The position numbers were made by a program, and so were the translations under genes. Below, in pieces: positions 8,702-15,015 of a stretch of DNA of 30,239 bases. The first letter of the stretch is position 1. Every line of letters begins with the position of its first letter. The DNA lies in IMG/VR virus record IMGVR_UViG_3300034375_000580, positions 1-30,239 of that record; one strand, 5' to 3'. The DNA comes from a virus. The notes under the pieces were generated by a model, which saw nothing but the letters and a program-made list of their open reading frames with translations, was not told where the DNA came from and ran no database searches.

Positions 8702-9211
8702 ATGGCTGATACTACAACGACGACTTACGGCCTCACTAAACCAGAAGTCGGCGCATCTGAAGATACTTGGGGAACCAAGTTAAATACTAACTTAGATACT
8801 CTCGATGATTTGCTAGATGGAACAACGGCGATTGCGCCAAATCTATCAACTCTTACAGTTAATGGAGTTGCAGTTACATCGACTGCCGCAGAGCTTAATA
8901 TTCTAGATGGAGTAACTGCTACTGCCGCAGAACTAAATACGTTAGATGGCATTACCGCAACTGTTACTGAGCTAAATTATACTGACGGAGTTACGTCGGC
9001 AATACAAACTCAGATAGACGCAAAAGCTCCAATTGCAAGCCCAACTTTTACAGGAACTGTAAATATACCTACAATTGATTTTGGCGATTGGACGATTACT
9101 GAGTCTGCTGGCGTTTTGTATTTTGCAACTGGCGGTACAAACAAAATGAAGCTAGATGCTTCTGGAAATCTTACAGTTGTTGGCAACGTGACCGCATACG
9201 GCACAATGTAA
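8702..9211 (+). CDS. Tail fibre protein with TAAELN-LDG repeats
   Basis: A 169-residue protein. Its N-terminus (TYGLTKPEVGASEDTWGTKLN) is a common fibre start in environmental phages. Residues about 60-97 hold three tandem copies of TAAELNxLDGVTA, the last degenerate (TVTELNYTDGV). Next is QTQIDAKAPIASPTFTGTV, which is typical of trimeric fibres, then a beta-rich end with FATGGTNKMKLDASGNL. A full AAGGAG site precedes the ATG. The repeat region is probably a trimeric shaft. It may form the shaft for the adhesin encoded next. Confidence 0.75.
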   Translation: MADTTTTTYGLTKPEVGASEDTWGTKLNTNLDTLDDLLDGTTAIAPNLSTLTVNGVAVTSTAAELNILDGVTATAAELNTLDGITATVTELNYTDGVTSAIQTQIDAKAPIASPTFTGTVNIPTIDFGDWTITESAGVLYFATGGTNKMKLDASGNLTVVGNVTAYGTM

Positions 9212-9222
9212 AGGATAGATAA

Positions 9223-10206
9223 ATGGCGTTACCAAGTAGCGGGACTATAAGTATAAGTCAAATAGCTTCTGAGTTTTCGGATACTGCGCCTCATTCTATG
9301 AGCGAGTTTTATAGAGGCGGCGGAAAAGTTCCAGACTCACCAACAAATACTTCAATACCTACTTCTGGTCAAATAGCTGTAGGAAATTTTTATGGCGCTC
9401 AAAATAGAGTTGGATTGCCATTAACAATTAGTGGAAATACTCAAAATTACGATCTTTGGAGTAATGTTTCTGGTAATCCTGGATACTCTGCAGGATCTAC
9501 TGACATCACATTGACTATCAATCCAGGAGTATTTGTAGGATCAACTTCTACAGGAAGTTACGCACTTTCAATCCCTGGAAGTTTTACATCGGGAGACACT
9601 GTAACAGTTGTGAACAACGGAACTGTTATTGGGATGGCAGGAAACGGCGGTATAGGAGGCGGCAACCCACCGTGGCCAGAGAATGCGTCTGGTGGTAGCA
9701 ATGGCGGCAATGCTGTTTATGTTAATTTTGCAACTACTATTACCAACAATGGAACGCTTGCCGGAGGCGGTGGTGGAGGAGGTGGCGGAGGACGTGGCGC
9801 TGGAACTAAACCAAGGCCTCCAAAACAAGGAGGCCCAACAGTCGTCATTTATGGTGGCGGCGGCGGAGGCGGCGGAGCAGGATATAATGCTGGATCTGGG
9901 GCTACTGGCGGCCAAAATACTACAGCTAACGGTGCGCCAGGGAGCAGTGGATCGCCTACTGGTGGCGGAGGCGGAGGTGCCGGAACAACAGATAACCCAT
10001 CATATGGTGGGCCAGGAGGGCCAGGGGGATCTGGAGGCGGACAAGGCGCTAACGGTAACAGTGGAAGCCCAGGAAATGGTGGGCCTGGGTTTGCTCCTGA
10101 TTTTATAAGGGGCGGAGCCGGTGGAGGCACAAGAGGCTATTATTTGGTAGGAAATCCATACGTTACATATCCAGCAACCGGAACAAGATTAGGTCAAGTT
10201 TCTTAA
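9223..10206 (+). CDS. Glycine-rich receptor-binding adhesin
   Basis: A 327-residue protein. Residues 1-60 (starting MALPSSGTISISQIASEFSD, later QIAVGNFYGA) match a start I know from phage fibre proteins. A beta-rich part follows (TDITLTINPGVFVGS, SFTSGDTVTVVNNGTVIG). The last 190 residues are dominated by Gly, with runs of up to ten Gly and blocks such as GGPGGPGGSGGG. This composition resembles adhesins whose tips are packed polyglycine type II helices, as in gp38 of T2/S16-like phages. Variable loops between Gly runs would contact the receptor. It is followed by a small gene that could be its assembly helper. Confidence 0.7.
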   Translation: MALPSSGTISISQIASEFSDTAPHSMSEFYRGGGKVPDSPTNTSIPTSGQIAVGNFYGAQNRVGLPLTISGNTQNYDLWSNVSGNPGYSAGSTDITLTINPGVFVGSTSTGSYALSIPGSFTSGDTVTVVNNGTVIGMAGNGGIGGGNPPWPENASGGSNGGNAVYVNFATTITNNGTLAGGGGGGGGGGRGAGTKPRPPKQGGPTVVIYGGGGGGGGAGYNAGSGATGGQNTTANGAPGSSGSPTGGGGGGAGTTDNPSYGGPGGPGGSGGGQGANGNSGSPGNGGPGFAPDFIRGGAGGGTRGYYLVGNPYVTYPATGTRLGQVS

Positions 10207-10218
10207 AAAGAGGACATT

Positions 10219-10569
10219 ATGCAAACAGTTACAGTAAAAATAATAGATTTTGACGAAGAAAGTGGATCATTAATTTGTTCATTTGCTTCTGATACTACAA
10301 AATCAAACAATCCAGATGATTACAGATCATTTGCATTTCAGCCTGTACTAATGTGGCCTGACGCAAGCACTACAGAAGAAGTAATGACTGAGTTGGCTAG
10401 ATGTGGAATGGGTATGTGCCAAGAATTTGAAAGGCAAGAATCTCTTAAAAGTAATTCTGATAAAACTAATTCATATAAAAATATGGTTAATCAGGTTAAA
10501 ACTTTTAATGTTTCAGACCTTTTGGTTAATAACTCTCCAGAAGAGCAAATTCCATCGGTGGAGGTATAA
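10219..10569 (+). CDS. Unknown protein after the adhesin, possible assembly factor
   Basis: A 116-residue acidic protein with an AGAGGA site before its ATG. The first part (TVTVKIIDFDEESGSLICSF, then YRSFAFQP and MWPDAST) looks beta-rich; the second is helical (EEVMTELARCGMGMCQEFE). No motif was recognised. Small genes directly behind fibre or adhesin genes often encode chaperones for them, and position is the only reason to propose that here. It could also be a virion component. Confidence 0.5.
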   Translation: MQTVTVKIIDFDEESGSLICSFASDTTKSNNPDDYRSFAFQPVLMWPDASTTEEVMTELARCGMGMCQEFERQESLKSNSDKTNSYKNMVNQVKTFNVSDLLVNNSPEEQIPSVEV

Positions 10570-10571
10570 AA

Positions 10572-11054
10572 ATGCAAAGGAAAGTATATAGAGCATTTGG
10601 CTTTCTTGTATATAACAATATATTTAAAGATGCAGAGCCATATTTTCCAGCTTATGCCGCCAATAGAAAATGGTTTAACTATTTCACTAAAGGCTCGATG
10701 GTAAATAACGTCGTAATGTCTACAAATGAGGCATTACCAGATTGGCATACTGGATCATGGGTAACTCCAGATGATTTAACGTTTTCAGGAACGGTAAGTC
10801 ATGGAATTGTTGGCGATACTGAAGTTTGGTGCATAGCGGCAGAAGAAAATAACAATTATTTGCCAGATTGCGAGAAGTGGTTTTTGGCCGCAGGAAGCTC
10901 AGAGAACTTGCCGGTTAACACAAAAATTATGTTTTGCAATGGATCATTGTCAGTAAACGGACAAACGATTACAAATCCAACTCAATTAAAAATTAAATCA
11001 TCTGATACAACGGTTACCGCCAATCAAGATTGTTTTGGTATAAAATTTGTTTGA
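10572..11054 (+). CDS. Unknown beta-rich protein in the accessory block
   Basis: A 160-residue protein preceded by GGAGGT at good spacing and ending in a TGATG junction with the next gene. The N-terminus is Tyr/Phe/Asn-rich (FGFLVYNNIFKDAEPYFPAY). The middle and end (SHGIVGDTEVWCIAAEE, KIMFCNGSLSVNGQTI, DCFGIKFV) look like alternating beta strands, with four to five Cys residues. A cupin or jelly-roll fold is conceivable, but no metal-binding set could be picked out. No family was recognised. Tight coupling to the oxygenase-like gene suggests a shared pathway. Confidence 0.5.
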   Translation: MQRKVYRAFGFLVYNNIFKDAEPYFPAYAANRKWFNYFTKGSMVNNVVMSTNEALPDWHTGSWVTPDDLTFSGTVSHGIVGDTEVWCIAAEENNNYLPDCEKWFLAAGSSENLPVNTKIMFCNGSLSVNGQTITNPTQLKIKSSDTTVTANQDCFGIKFV

Positions 11055-11641
11055 TGTACGCCAAACAGCTAGATATCAGTTTTCCAATTCCAGAGGATCG
11101 GGATAGACAGATATTAAGCGAGCATGGAAAGCTAAAGATATCTAACAGGCCAAGTTTAATTAGGCGAAATTTGTTAGAAGTTGACGACTACTTAAATCTC
11201 TTACCGCAAGTAAGAGATTTTTGTATTGACTCATCTATTAGCGACTTAAAGTTGCTAAGTCCTCATTTACACACAAAAGACAAGTCTGTTATCAACTTTT
11301 ATCTAAGCACAAACAATGAAGTTACATCGTTCTGGGAGGGCAAAGATGAGTTCGACGACAGATGGACAACCGATGGTGGCGACACTTATTACAACGTAAA
11401 ACCTGAAAATCTTGATGTTGTTTACAGATTCTGCGCTAAGCCTGGCGACGTATGGATACTCAATCCTCAAAAAATACATTCAGTATTGCCAGATATTGAG
11501 GCAGAAGAAAATATCAAAAAAGGCAACAAAGATAGAAGATTGATACATTACGTCAGAAAAAATACAAGAAAGATGATTCAGTTAATTTTTAATATAGAAA
11601 TTGATGAAATGATAGAAAGGATTTATGGAACAAAACTTTAA
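11054..11641 (+). CDS. 2OG-Fe(II) oxygenase-like protein, metal site apparently incomplete
   Basis: The 195-residue product has the sequence order of a double-stranded beta-helix oxygenase. PHLHTKDKSVINFYLSTN starts at residue 70, then comes YRFCAKPGDVWILNPQKIHS with H142, and finally RRLIHYV with R161/R162. A canonical H-x-D is not seen: H73 is followed by T74 and K75, with D76 one place too far. It may be a substrate-binding or structural relative that lost catalysis, or it may use a different acidic residue. The ATG at 11054 overlaps the previous stop. An in-frame ATG at 11030 would add eight residues but lies deep in the previous gene. Confidence 0.5.
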   Translation: MYAKQLDISFPIPEDRDRQILSEHGKLKISNRPSLIRRNLLEVDDYLNLLPQVRDFCIDSSISDLKLLSPHLHTKDKSVINFYLSTNNEVTSFWEGKDEFDDRWTTDGGDTYYNVKPENLDVVYRFCAKPGDVWILNPQKIHSVLPDIEAEENIKKGNKDRRLIHYVRKNTRKMIQLIFNIEIDEMIERIYGTKL

Positions 11642-12794
11642 ACACATTAAAGATGCAATGCACATTGAAACATGCAATTTTTTAACAAATTTTTTAAGAC
11701 AATGTTCAGAAAATAATATTGGTATGGACGATGGGCAATGCCCAAAAAGCTCGTCTGTTTCAAGCCACCAACATGATATTTTAGACAAGGTTTTAGAAGA
11801 ATTTACTCCGTTTATGGAAAAAGAAGTTGGGAAAAAATTGTTTCCTACATATGCATATGCTAGGTATTACCTTAATGGAGAAGTTTTGTTATGTCACACG
11901 GATAGACCGGCTTGCGAGTACAGCGCAACTATTACTCTTGGTTTTGACAAAAATGTTTGGCCTATATTTATAGCAAATCCAGGAAAGGAAACAGATCAAG
12001 GGATTATTGGGGAATTTGACGAAATATTTAGAGTCAAAGATGTTAATAAAATAGAAATGGAAGTAGGAGACGCTGTTGTTTACAAGGGAGGCGTTGCTCC
12101 TCATTGGAGAGATGCTTTTGAAGGACAATGGCAAGCGCAAATATTTTTACATTATGTAGATCAAAACGGAAAATATTCAGAAGAAAAATTTGATCGTAGA
12201 AAAAAATTATCGCATCACAAAATTGATGATGATAAAAATGATAACGAATTATTATATTGGTATGTGCCTAATGCTATCGCTGATATAGCTTGTGATCAAA
12301 TGATTGAAAAATTTGAATTATCTGAATCTCACAAAGCATTTGTTGGAGGTACTACAAGTGGAGAAAATGGATTAGTTGATCTTAGTATTCGTGATGTAAA
12401 CAAAATACAGATAACAAATGAAATTGGTATTGGAGCAACGCTAACAGGAATTGGATTTAATATTAATAAGCGTTCTTGGAATTTTGATGTTACCCATAGC
12501 AATCAATCTGAATATTTAAGATATGATGTAAATGGCCATTATGTTTGTCATCCTGACACTTATCTTGTCCCATCTGAAAAGGAATGCAGAAAGATAACTG
12601 TACTTGCTTTTTTAAATGATGATTTTGAGGGAGGTAAGTTTTATTTACAAAATGGCCATTCTAAAACTTATCCTGAACAGAAAAAAGGAACTGTTATTGC
12701 GTTTCCTAGCTTTATAAATCATGGAGTCGAGCCAGTAAAGTCTGGCATAAGGCGTAGCATAGTTACATGGATTGTCGGGCCTTGGTTTAGATAA
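11625..12794 (+). CDS. Two fused 2OG-Fe(II) oxygenase domains
   Basis: A 389-residue protein with two prolyl-hydroxylase-like halves. Domain 1 (about 70-180) has CHTD with H91 and D93, and the distal histidine H160 in VAPHWRD, ending QAQIFLHYVD. Domain 2 (about 290-389) has CHPD with H309 and D311, distal H366 in NHGVEPV, and an arginine pair R376/R377 in GIRRSIVTWI for 2-oxoglutarate binding. Domain 2 is therefore complete. In domain 1 the place of the arginine is held by WQAQ. Each domain would use Fe(II), O2 and 2-oxoglutarate to hydroxylate a substrate that cannot be named. It overlaps the preceding gene by 17 bp and is notably AT-rich (15 G+C in the 60 bases 11641-11700). Confidence 0.8.
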   Translation: MEQNFKHIKDAMHIETCNFLTNFLRQCSENNIGMDDGQCPKSSSVSSHQHDILDKVLEEFTPFMEKEVGKKLFPTYAYARYYLNGEVLLCHTDRPACEYSATITLGFDKNVWPIFIANPGKETDQGIIGEFDEIFRVKDVNKIEMEVGDAVVYKGGVAPHWRDAFEGQWQAQIFLHYVDQNGKYSEEKFDRRKKLSHHKIDDDKNDNELLYWYVPNAIADIACDQMIEKFELSESHKAFVGGTTSGENGLVDLSIRDVNKIQITNEIGIGATLTGIGFNINKRSWNFDVTHSNQSEYLRYDVNGHYVCHPDTYLVPSEKECRKITVLAFLNDDFEGGKFYLQNGHSKTYPEQKKGTVIAFPSFINHGVEPVKSGIRRSIVTWIVGPWFR

Positions 12795-12795
12795 C

Positions 12796-13527
12796 ATGAA
12801 ACAGCACCATAAATTACTTATATCTCAGGCGCTCATACATTTAATCGGGATAGTAGGCATTTTTCTATATTTTGACGCTAAATTCTTATGGCTAACTGTC
12901 GCTGGAGTGTTTTTGTTCGCCCATTTAGGCATAGGAATTTATTGTCACAGATATTTAGCTCATCATTCTTTTGAAACTAGCTCTTTTGTTGAGAAAATAT
13001 TAAATTTTTTATCAATTATGTGTTTGCAAGGGCCGCCAATGGTATGGGCGGCAAACCATGTTACTCACCATAAGAACGCTGATCAAGAAGGAGATCCGCA
13101 TCCAGCAAGCTCATGGTTTAGGACTTGGTTTTGGATAGGTACTGACAAAAACTCTGTTATATGTCAAAAGACAATAAAAAGACTGTCAAAGGACAAAATA
13201 CACAAAAACACAAATAAACACTATTACAAAATATATTGGTCAATTATCATTATTTCTAGCTTTTTTGACTTTAAGGCGACTTTGTATTTGTTTGTTTTGC
13301 CTGTTATTTACGCATTCCATATGTCGTCATTTACTAACGTAATACTGCATAAATTTGGATACAGAAACTTTGAAACTAACGATAAATCGATGAATTTGCC
13401 AATACCGATACTGTTAGATAGCGCATATCACAACAATCATCACGCTATGCCTAAATCTTACAATATGGCAGTTAAATGGCACGAATTTGATATGTTAGGT
13501 CATGTGATAGATTTAATAAGGAAGTAA
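12796..13527 (+). CDS. Fatty acid desaturase (delta-9 acyl-CoA/acyl-lipid type)
   Basis: A membrane di-iron enzyme that puts a double bond into fatty acyl chains. All three histidine boxes are present: HRYLAHH (51-57), HVTHH (88-92) and HNNHH (212-216). H175 and H185 (HMSSFTNVILHKFG) supply the extra ligands typical of the delta-9 group. Hydrophobic segments lie at about 8-48, 65-80 and 145-175. At 244 residues or slightly less it is short for the family, and no cytochrome b5 domain is fused, so electrons must come from host proteins. The ATG at 12796 follows the oxygenase stop by one base. A phage-borne metabolic gene; effects on host membrane fluidity or lipid supply are inferred. Confidence 0.88.
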   Translation: MKQHHKLLISQALIHLIGIVGIFLYFDAKFLWLTVAGVFLFAHLGIGIYCHRYLAHHSFETSSFVEKILNFLSIMCLQGPPMVWAANHVTHHKNADQEGDPHPASSWFRTWFWIGTDKNSVICQKTIKRLSKDKIHKNTNKHYYKIYWSIIIISSFFDFKATLYLFVLPVIYAFHMSSFTNVILHKFGYRNFETNDKSMNLPIPILLDSAYHNNHHAMPKSYNMAVKWHEFDMLGHVIDLIRK

Positions 13528-13530
13528 CAA

Positions 13531-15015
13531 ATGGCTCTAATACCACTACAGATACAGGCCGGAGTCTTTAGAAACGGCACAGAATTTGAGCAATCAAACA
13601 GATGGCGAGATGCAAGTTTAGTGCGCTGGCATAACGGCTCGATGAGGCCTGTAGGCGGTTGGTCTACCAGAGTTTCTTCTGCATTTGATGCCGCCGCCAG
13701 AGGAATGCACTCTTGGGTTGATAACTCAGATGACAGCCACATAGTTGCCGGAACTTATGCAAAATTGTTCCATGTTAATGCGTCTGGAACTGTAGTTGAG
13801 ATTACTCCATCTGGATTAACTGCAGGATCAGAAGATGCCGCAGTCAATCTTGGATATGGAGGTGGATATTATGGTCTTGGATACTACGGAGTTGAAAGAC
13901 CAAATACTGGAGTATTTCAGGAGGCCACAACTTGGTCATTGGATAACTGGGGCGAGTATCTCGTCGCCTGTTCTCCCCAAGATGGCAAGTTATATGAGTG
14001 GCAACTTGATACTGGAGTTGTAGCCGCTCAGATATCAAACGCACCTGTTGATAACTTAGGATTGATAGTTACAGAAGAAAGATTCTTATTTGCTCTTGGA
14101 GCAGGTAGTAATCCGAGAAAGGTGCAGTGGTGCGATAGGGAAGACAACACGACGTGGACTCCAGACGCTACAAACGAAGCTGGCGACATTGAGTTGCAGA
14201 CAAATGGCCAAATCATGGCCGCCGCTAGAGTTAGAGGTAAAACTTTGATCGTAACTGATAACGACGCTCATTCTGCTACTTATCAAGGGCCACCGTTTGT
14301 TTATGGGTTTGAAAGAGTTGGAACAGCTTGCGGTCTTGTATCTCGAAAAGCAATAGCGTCAATTGACGATGGCGCTTTTTGGATGGGGGCAAGAGGCTTC
14401 TTTATGTTCGATGGATCTATAGCAAGAGAGATTCCATGTGACGTATCTGATTATGTTTTTGCTGATATAAACAAAAACCAAATAAGCAAGACATACGCTG
14501 TACATAACAGTCAGTATGGCGAAATATGGTGGTTCTATCCAAGCAATGACTCATTAGAGAACAACAAATATGTAGCTTTTGATTACCTTGAAAAACACTG
14601 GGAAATAGGCGAAATCGACAGGACTTGCGGCGTTGATAGGGGAGTTTTCACAAATCCAATATGGGTTGACGCGAGTGGAAACATTTACGACCAAGAGTTA
14701 AGTGAGCAATTGGGGCATGGATCTTATGATGTTTTTGCCGAAACCGGCCCGATAAGCCTTGGCGCTGGCGATAACATAATGAAAGTTACAAGCCTTATAC
14801 CTGACGAGAAAACACAAGGTGACGTGACCGTAACATTTAAAACTAGGTTTTATCCAAATGACTCAGAATCGTCGTTTGGGCCGTATACCATGTCAAATCC
14901 TACTGACGTTAGGTTTAGCGGGAGGCAGGTCAGGATGCGCGTTGACGGCGCGAGAAATACTGCTTGGAGGTCTGGCGTAATGAGGATCGAGGCCAAGCCA
15001 GGAGGTAACCGTTGA
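13531..15015 (+). CDS. Packaged-DNA stabilisation/tail hub protein (P22 gp10-like)
   Basis: A 494-residue protein. The start (IPLQIQAGVFRNGTEFEQ, then RWRDASLVRWHNGSMRPVGG) is a well-known opening in podovirus-like genomes where the product is called stabilisation or tail protein. Repeated blade-like segments with aromatic and Gly residues follow (YVAFDYLEKHWEIGEID, FWMGARGFFMFDGSI), consistent with a beta-propeller. The end is beta-rich (TVTFKTRFYPN, RFSGRQVRMRVDGA). P22 gp10 closes the portal channel after packaging; a like role is inferred. The gene resumes the tail module after the accessory block and overlaps the next start by 4 bp. Confidence 0.6.
   Translation: MALIPLQIQAGVFRNGTEFEQSNRWRDASLVRWHNGSMRPVGGWSTRVSSAFDAAARGMHSWVDNSDDSHIVAGTYAKLFHVNASGTVVEITPSGLTAGSEDAAVNLGYGGGYYGLGYYGVERPNTGVFQEATTWSLDNWGEYLVACSPQDGKLYEWQLDTGVVAAQISNAPVDNLGLIVTEERFLFALGAGSNPRKVQWCDREDNTTWTPDATNEAGDIELQTNGQIMAAARVRGKTLIVTDNDAHSATYQGPPFVYGFERVGTACGLVSRKAIASIDDGAFWMGARGFFMFDGSIAREIPCDVSDYVFADINKNQISKTYAVHNSQYGEIWWFYPSNDSLENNKYVAFDYLEKHWEIGEIDRTCGVDRGVFTNPIWVDASGNIYDQELSEQLGHGSYDVFAETGPISLGAGDNIMKVTSLIPDEKTQGDVTVTFKTRFYPNDSESSFGPYTMSNPTDVRFSGRQVRMRVDGARNTAWRSGVMRIEAKPGGNR
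15001..15006 (+). promoter_or_regulatory. Ribosome binding site GGAGGT supporting a TTG start
   Basis: A full GGAGGT lies 5 nt before TTG at 15012, inside the last codons of the gp10-like gene. It supports initiation at TTG in the TTGA junction. Confidence 0.6.

Follow-up and report, generated by a model that had tools for sequence, protein, structure and literature searches.

The 30,239-bp IMG/VR virus record IMGVR_UViG_3300034375_000580, from a marine phage and the full length of which is referred to here as the window, contains a gene for a glycine-rich adhesin (adh) followed by five genes designated c116, c160, c203, c389 and c251. We favour, with modest confidence, the reading that this unit (9223–13527) is a cassette for maturation of the adhesin by hydroxylation, co-expressed with the late tail genes. 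This reading is based on gene order, co-occurrence, predicted folds, the conserved metal ligands of c389, an association between c389 and the proline content of linked adhesins, and a lysine retained in an adhesin loop. From these we infer that the adhesin is the substrate, which of its residues are modified and that c116 has a chaperone role; that a linked protein is also a modified one is likewise our inference. Prolyl hydroxylation is what the fold, the synteny and the proline association suggest, with lysine as the second candidate.

Extent and conservation of the cassette

The five genes downstream of adh are forward, nearly gapless open reading frames (ORFs; 10219–13527) that end at a gene for a gp10-like virion protein, so that our ORF calls agree with the tight coupling described in the first-pass annotation of this DNA. 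In Octadecabacter Antarctic DB virus 2 (DB2), the source of the nearest portal among sequenced phages (47 % identity), the homologues of the 8702–9211 gene and of the gp10-like gene abut, with neither an adhesin nor any of the five genes between them, and the inserted unit is therefore 9223–13527. The annotation had suggested checking the synteny of the adhesin and the gp10-like gene in relatives without the block; in DB2 the adhesin is missing too, so adh is a member of the cassette and not the left border of the block.

The order adh-c116-c160-c203-c389(-X)(-c251), in which gene X itself matches PF13640, recurs in podoviruses that were found independently via their c389 relatives, and whose gp10 and gp4 proteins are only ~28 % identical to those of the window, as against 56–66 % for adh and c389. 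In a separate scan with a c116 profile, from which 80 loci were kept, the gene immediately preceding c116 is adh in 84 of 85 contigs. Of the 47 cassettes that remain once redundancy is removed, 41 have c160, 40 have c203, 36 have c389-type genes and 34 have gene X; at least one gene with a double-stranded β-helix (DSBH) fold is found in 44, and a c251-type desaturase in 10. Reduced forms consist of adh-c116-c389 (L007–L010) or lack c251 (L018–L020) or c389 (L107–L110). The two c389 domains are split in many cassettes into two genes of ~188 and ~200 codons, additional 2-oxoglutarate (2OG) oxygenase genes are often present, and some neighbours not labelled by profiles also match Pfam 2OG-oxygenase families. 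The co-occurrence that the annotation had suggested looking for was thus found: the genes accompany one another and the adhesin, and independence of one another in relatives was not seen. In the T4-like contigs L123 and L166, neck-type genes follow immediately on adh-c116-c160 and there are no oxygenase genes in the vicinity, which provides a natural comparison group.

c389 resembles protein prolyl hydroxylases

The C-terminal domain of c389 scores 53.7 bits against PF13640 (cut-off 27), a family matched at E≤0.01 by all 56 members of the c389 family. Its HxD...H triad and 2OG-binding arginine (H309, D311, H366 and R376) are invariant in the 56 aligned relatives, as is the triad of the N-terminal domain (H91, D93 and H160). 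When the AlphaFold2 model (pLDDT 88.8) was compared with solved structures, the best Foldseek matches were Tpa1/OGFOD1, and the C domain aligned with vCPH (VIA Z 18.0, rmsd 3.0 over 163 residues), with the Pseudomonas EF-Tu prolyl hydroxylase PPHD (VIA Z 17.8, rmsd 3.1 over 173) and with PHD2 (Z about 17). Judged from this model, the C domain is prolyl-hydroxylase-like, its closest solved folds being those of protein prolyl hydroxylases. The likeness to vCPH (from PBCV-1), PPHD and Tpa1/OGFOD1 extends to the DSBH fold and the HxD...H...R triad, and yeast Tpa1 and human OGFOD1 also carry two DSBH domains. c389 differs from these enzymes in having a metal triad in both domains, in being only ~16–22 % identical to them and in being tied to a phage Gly-rich adhesin.

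PHROGs labels the N domain, encoded by 11625–12211, ‘ferrochelatase’ (phrog_2954/3531). We rejected this function, as no such Pfam or NCBIfam domain was matched and the region folds as a DSBH with HxD...H. The marine phage ‘ferrochelatase’ genes of phrog_2954 and phrog_3531 (L086, L087, L089 and L091) also resemble a DSBH with HxD...H, and the label is probably a propagated error. A role in defence was likewise discarded, the sole PADLOC match being to a generic 2OG model listed as CRISPR-associated.

c389 relatives lie beside Gly-rich tail proteins in other phages

Relatives of c389 (42–48 % identity) occur in dozens of other aquatic phages, mostly right after a gene for a Gly-rich tail protein and an intervening gene of 65–95 codons, here called S. 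A Gly-rich ORF lies no more than two ORFs upstream at 38 of 69 such loci, where 11.4 would be expected from the other ORFs of the same contigs, and no more than four upstream at 50 of the 69. Within the c389 tree the deep branches are those with the Gly-rich context, and branches with a replication-module context are nested. When the search was started from S, 118 of 124 S genes were found to follow a Gly-rich protein and c389 was adjacent in 71 of these 118; c389 is therefore an optional accessory in the S family, and adhesins with and without it are consequently comparable. One further single-protein scan matched only itself. Of the GenBank phages in which c389 is split into a gene pair, HTVC033P, HTVC023P, 023Pt_psg01, Sf-CH11, ACG-2014b, S-MS29 and S-CAM8 have a gene for a Gly-rich tail protein no more than ~3.5 kb away; they include pelagiphages and cyanophages in culture.

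Two side observations concern these loci. Where a Gly-rich protein and S occur without c389, a gene of 92–94 codons usually stands in its place (L196–L199, L201, L206, L216, L224–L226, L230, L238, L241, L244, L245 and L248). In Synechococcus phage Sf-CH11 (L091:6424–7980), a tryptophan 7-halogenase gene is found inside a run of four 2OG-oxygenase-type genes, which is itself flanked by two Gly-rich tail proteins.

Adhesin tips linked to c389 are richer in proline

In the discovery sample, to which the stricter domain definition was applied, proline made up 6.1 % of tip residues with c389 and 4.7 % without (n=47 and 23, P=0.009). An independent scan gave 7.1 versus 1.9 % (n=17 and 7, P=1.8e-4), and the two samples pooled gave 6.3 versus 4.0 % (n=64 and 30, P=1e-5). 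In pairs matched on S the difference was positive in 22 of 30 (Wilcoxon P=9e-4, sign test P=0.016). No such effect was seen for glycine, asparagine or aspartate, and serine was slightly lower. In the window’s own adh family, where the proline difference is not significant (see below), a close relative without c389 (L107) has one proline in 125 tip residues and the window has 15 in 165.

Such an association could in principle arise by chance hitch-hiking, proline-rich adhesin lineages and c389 being co-inherited with no functional link between them. Related contigs are indeed not independent, and in a phylogenetic regression on the S tree the effect, for which P=4e-6 at the best lambda (0.42), weakens to P=0.01 at a lambda of 0.99, i.e. 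a strict Brownian model. Nevertheless, the S tree holds at least 15 changes of c389 presence, the association was replicated independently and there is no G+C confound, and we regard hitch-hiking as very improbable.

A near-invariant lysine in a hypervariable adhesin loop

The adh family combines polyglycine motifs with hypervariable distal loops (alignment A5, 42 loops), as is characteristic of Gly-rich tail-fibre adhesins. In Pfam, checked for a Gly_rich_2 match, the adh of the window hits no family; PF21722 is matched by other adhesins linked to c389. A lysine is carried by 40 of 42 non-redundant adh proteins in a loop of variable length and sequence, and it is usually the only lysine in the entire Gly-rich part. 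Of the 54 lysines beyond residue 120 in these proteins, 44 fall in the hypervariable loop, and 36 of those 44 have a proline within two residues; the residues that neighbour the near-invariant lysine vary across the family. In the window’s adhesin the Gly-rich part has just two lysines, Lys196 and Lys201 (9808–9825), both in one hypervariable loop. A fixed residue in the midst of hypervariable sequence suggests a chemical role that is independent of receptor specificity; this is a lead from aligned sequences, noticed post hoc.

The only two adhesins that lack the loop lysine (L007 and L112) come from cassettes without c160 and c203. Presence of the lysine was not significantly associated with c203 (P=0.052); for a c160-like gene P=0.0035, a value that is post hoc and assumes that genes encoding ~163 residues are c160-like, their direct hidden Markov model scores being weak. 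The coincidence of these absences, together with the near-constant presence of c160, could be taken to mean that the oxygenases modify not the adhesin but another virion or late protein, such as c160, c116 or a neighbouring tail protein. However, c160 is absent from the large class of loci made up of a Gly-rich protein, S and c389, in which c389 is equally conserved, and we consider a different substrate improbable.

The desaturase and the small genes

c251 scores 52.4 bits against PF00487 (cut-off 29.7), has the three acyl-desaturase His boxes and matches a PDB acyl-CoA desaturase (5e-12); its score of 78 bits against the DesA fatty acid desaturase model NF049918 is below the equivalog cut-off of 400. 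On these sequence matches it is a desaturase-type membrane protein and an optional member of the cassette. The presence of a bona fide protein of this type raises the question of whether the function of the cassette is to alter the surface or membrane of the host, through modification of lipid or surface glycan, for example to exclude superinfecting phages or to aid release, and PhyH-like Pfam matches, although ranking below the prolyl-hydroxylase-type match, are found in 25 of 56 c389 sequences. The rarity of the desaturase and the persistence of the oxygenases without it run counter to such a role, to which we attach little probability. Since the desaturase is optional, the joint lipid remodelling put forward in the annotation is not the core function.

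Neither c116 (in Pfam, PHROGs and NCBIfam) nor c160 matches anything known. There is no convincing sequence similarity between c116 and known tail-fibre chaperones (Tfa/gp25); its near-constant position directly downstream of the fibre-tip gene is as expected of one. Searches of sequenced phages with c116, c203 and c251 returned no or merely remote matches, and a scan of bacterial genome contigs with the c116 profile, tried as a route to host assignment, found no relative.

Layout of the window

Besides the cassette, the window encodes a P22-type portal, gp4-like and gp10-like proteins, a scaffold and a major capsid protein. Features in and around the cassette are listed in Table 1. By homology, the likely starts of c203 and c251 are the ATG codons at 11054 (in a TGATG overlap) and 12796, and not the TTG codons at 11030 and 12772; the start of c389 overlaps the end of c203 by 17 nt.

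The local G+C counts reported in the annotation (15/60, 20/60 and 29/60) are exact. Of the window’s 3,309-bp stretches, the block has essentially the lowest G+C content (0.344); away from it the values go no lower than 0.377. We considered and rejected horizontal acquisition as a conclusion from this dip: it is real, but the third-position G+C of the block (0.21–0.35) is ordinary for the window’s tail genes (0.20–0.28 in g7910, g8702, g18173 and g20158), and because of this resemblance the low G+C argues only weakly for a foreign source.

Table 1. Features of the adhesin cassette and its flanks in the window
Feature	Coordinates	Strand	Remarks
Conserved tail gene, left flank of inserted unit	8702..9211	+	49 % identical to DB2 gp12
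adh, Gly-rich adhesin, first cassette gene	9223..10206	+	327 aa, 28 % Gly; phrog_10745 3e-21, phrog_11439 tail fiber 5e-9
adh hypervariable loop RGAGTKPRPPKQGGPTVVIY with near-invariant Lys201 (codon at 9823)	9793..9852	+	Lys in 40/42 adhesins
c116, small conserved protein, candidate adhesin-folding chaperone (from position)	10219..10569	+	Conserved family A3
c160, conserved protein, possibly structural	10572..11054	+	Family A4; in 41/47 cassettes
c203, 2OG-oxygenase-like DSBH protein without HxD	11054..11641	+	AlphaFold2 fold, invariant residues
c389, twin DSBH oxygenase	11625..12794	+	PF13640 4.2e-14; triads invariant in 56 sequences; folds
c251, membrane fatty-acid desaturase-like, optional member	12796..13527	+	PF00487 8.5e-14; His boxes HRYLAH, HVTHH, HNNHH
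gp10-like virion protein, right flank of inserted unit	13531..15015	+	phrog_3287 2.5e-93; 64 % identical to DB2 gp13

Weighing the evidence

A number of observations weigh against adhesin hydroxylation. Some concern genomic context: the split c389 pairs of phages S-T4, ACG-2014f and S-SCSM1 have no Gly-rich protein next to them, Syn19 has a single-domain relative between uvsY and uvsW, and in ~18 contigs c389 has DNA polymerase, exonuclease or HNH genes of a replication module as its neighbours (among them L026, L027, L029, L031, L033, L039, L047, L056, L064 and L071), with a Gly-rich adhesin elsewhere in only 3 of 17 such contigs, most of which are fragments. Others concern composition: the discovery set was examined for 20 residues, of which proline is one, though its result was replicated, and a difference in glutamate was also present until phylogeny was corrected for; within the window’s own adh family the proline difference is not significant (8.1 versus 6.3 %, P=0.11) and contrasts are few; and the adhesin of L166 still has 9.4 % proline. 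The enzymes themselves also contribute. The c389 N domain has an invariant glutamine (Q172) at the usual position of the 2OG-binding arginine, a role in which another conserved arginine may serve. c203 is predicted to adopt a DSBH fold (AlphaFold2 pLDDT 87.6; VIA Z 10.1, 3.2 over 138, against 6n1f and VIA Z 9.7, 3.0 over 149, against ycfD) and H142 and R172 are invariant, yet it has no HxD/E motif; an invariant P-H71-x-H73-T stands where HxD would be expected, and for this reason we call it ‘oxygenase-like’ only. Thus, of the three iron- and O2-dependent enzymes named in the annotation, c389 (with both triads) and c251 (with three His boxes) are upheld and c203 agrees in fold alone. The annotation’s further proposal, that a collagen-hydroxylase-like enzyme acts on a Gly/Pro-rich adhesin, has gained indirect support from fold, synteny and the replicated proline association, and hydroxylation itself is a step beyond them.

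The replication contexts are those that would be predicted if the oxygenases were auxiliary metabolic or DNA-related enzymes (consuming 2OG, repairing DNA oxidatively or modifying nucleotides) that happen to occupy a late-gene hotspot beside the adhesin, and earlier literature, in the part of PMC3037559 considered here, assigns phage 2OG oxygenases, the 2OG-Fe(II) proteins of marine phages included, to DNA repair or to 2OG metabolism. That explanation leaves unaccounted for the repeated placement beside Gly-rich adhesins in unrelated phages, the nested position of the replication contexts in the tree and the proline association; moreover, the best folds are those of protein prolyl hydroxylases and not of AlkB-type enzymes. 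We therefore judge it unlikely, though still deserving of serious consideration.

Proposed mechanism and relation to known systems

Our working model for adhesin hydroxylation is that adh forms the tip of a tail fibre of the trimer type, with stacked polyglycine in its distal domain and hypervariable loops for the receptor, and that c116, perhaps with c160, would aid its folding or assembly. By analogy with the fibre of phage Pam3, c116 or S may hold the tip unfolded, so that the oxygenases could act before it closes. c389, and probably c203, would then hydroxylate proline, and possibly the loop lysine, in the Gly-rich tip during assembly. The hydroxyl groups might stabilize the loops or suit them chemically to the receptor while leaving loop sequence unconstrained, and the desaturase would be an optional addition.

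Hydroxylases that act on a virus’s own Gly/Pro-rich proteins have precedents in the prolyl 4-hydroxylase of PBCV-1 and the lysyl hydroxylase of mimivirus. Those, however, belong to eukaryotic giant viruses and collagen triple helices, whereas here the protein is a phage adhesin, and its Gly-rich part does not follow the Gly-X-Y pattern of collagen. For the mechanism the closest structural precedent, taken as an analogy, comes from Pam3: its fibre gp24 is a trimer with a polyglycine tip and variable loops at the distal end, and the chaperone gp25, encoded alongside, folds it (PMC9608196). The Pam3 gp24/gp25 system and S16 gp38 share with the cassette the polyglycine motifs, the hypervariable distal loops and a small gene directly downstream; they differ in that no oxygenases have been described for them and in that c116 has no detectable sequence similarity to a solved chaperone.

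The pairs of ‘2OG-Fe(II) oxygenase’ and ‘ferrochelatase’ genes of pelagiphages and cyanophages (PMC9599517) correspond to the two c389 domains, which in the window are fused in one gene within an adhesin-c116-c160-c203 cassette. The section of that report available here takes them for metabolic genes, with no discussion of their Gly-rich neighbours. Elsewhere, again going by excerpts, a survey raises the possibility of a prolyl hydroxylase and collagen tail fibres (PMC9301287), and EGLN3-like folds have been noted in marine phages (PMC12774648). Within the literature searched, which took in neither subscription journals nor preprints and was represented partly by excerpts, we found no description of an adhesin-linked oxygenase cassette.

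More broadly, and more tentatively than for the window itself, we propose that aquatic phages may carry dedicated cassettes that hydroxylate Gly-rich receptor-binding tips at proline and at a conserved loop lysine, and that many genes annotated as ‘2OG-Fe(II) oxygenase’ or ‘ferrochelatase’ may belong to virion maturation. Among the ‘auxiliary metabolic genes’ of marine phages that lack an explanation, those for 2OG-Fe(II) oxygenases are some of the commonest, and the usual guess has been that they serve DNA repair or 2OG metabolism. Their link to receptor-binding tips, by synteny, fold and a sequence association that was replicated, points to chemical maturation of the adhesin, which, if true, would represent a new layer of phage host recognition.

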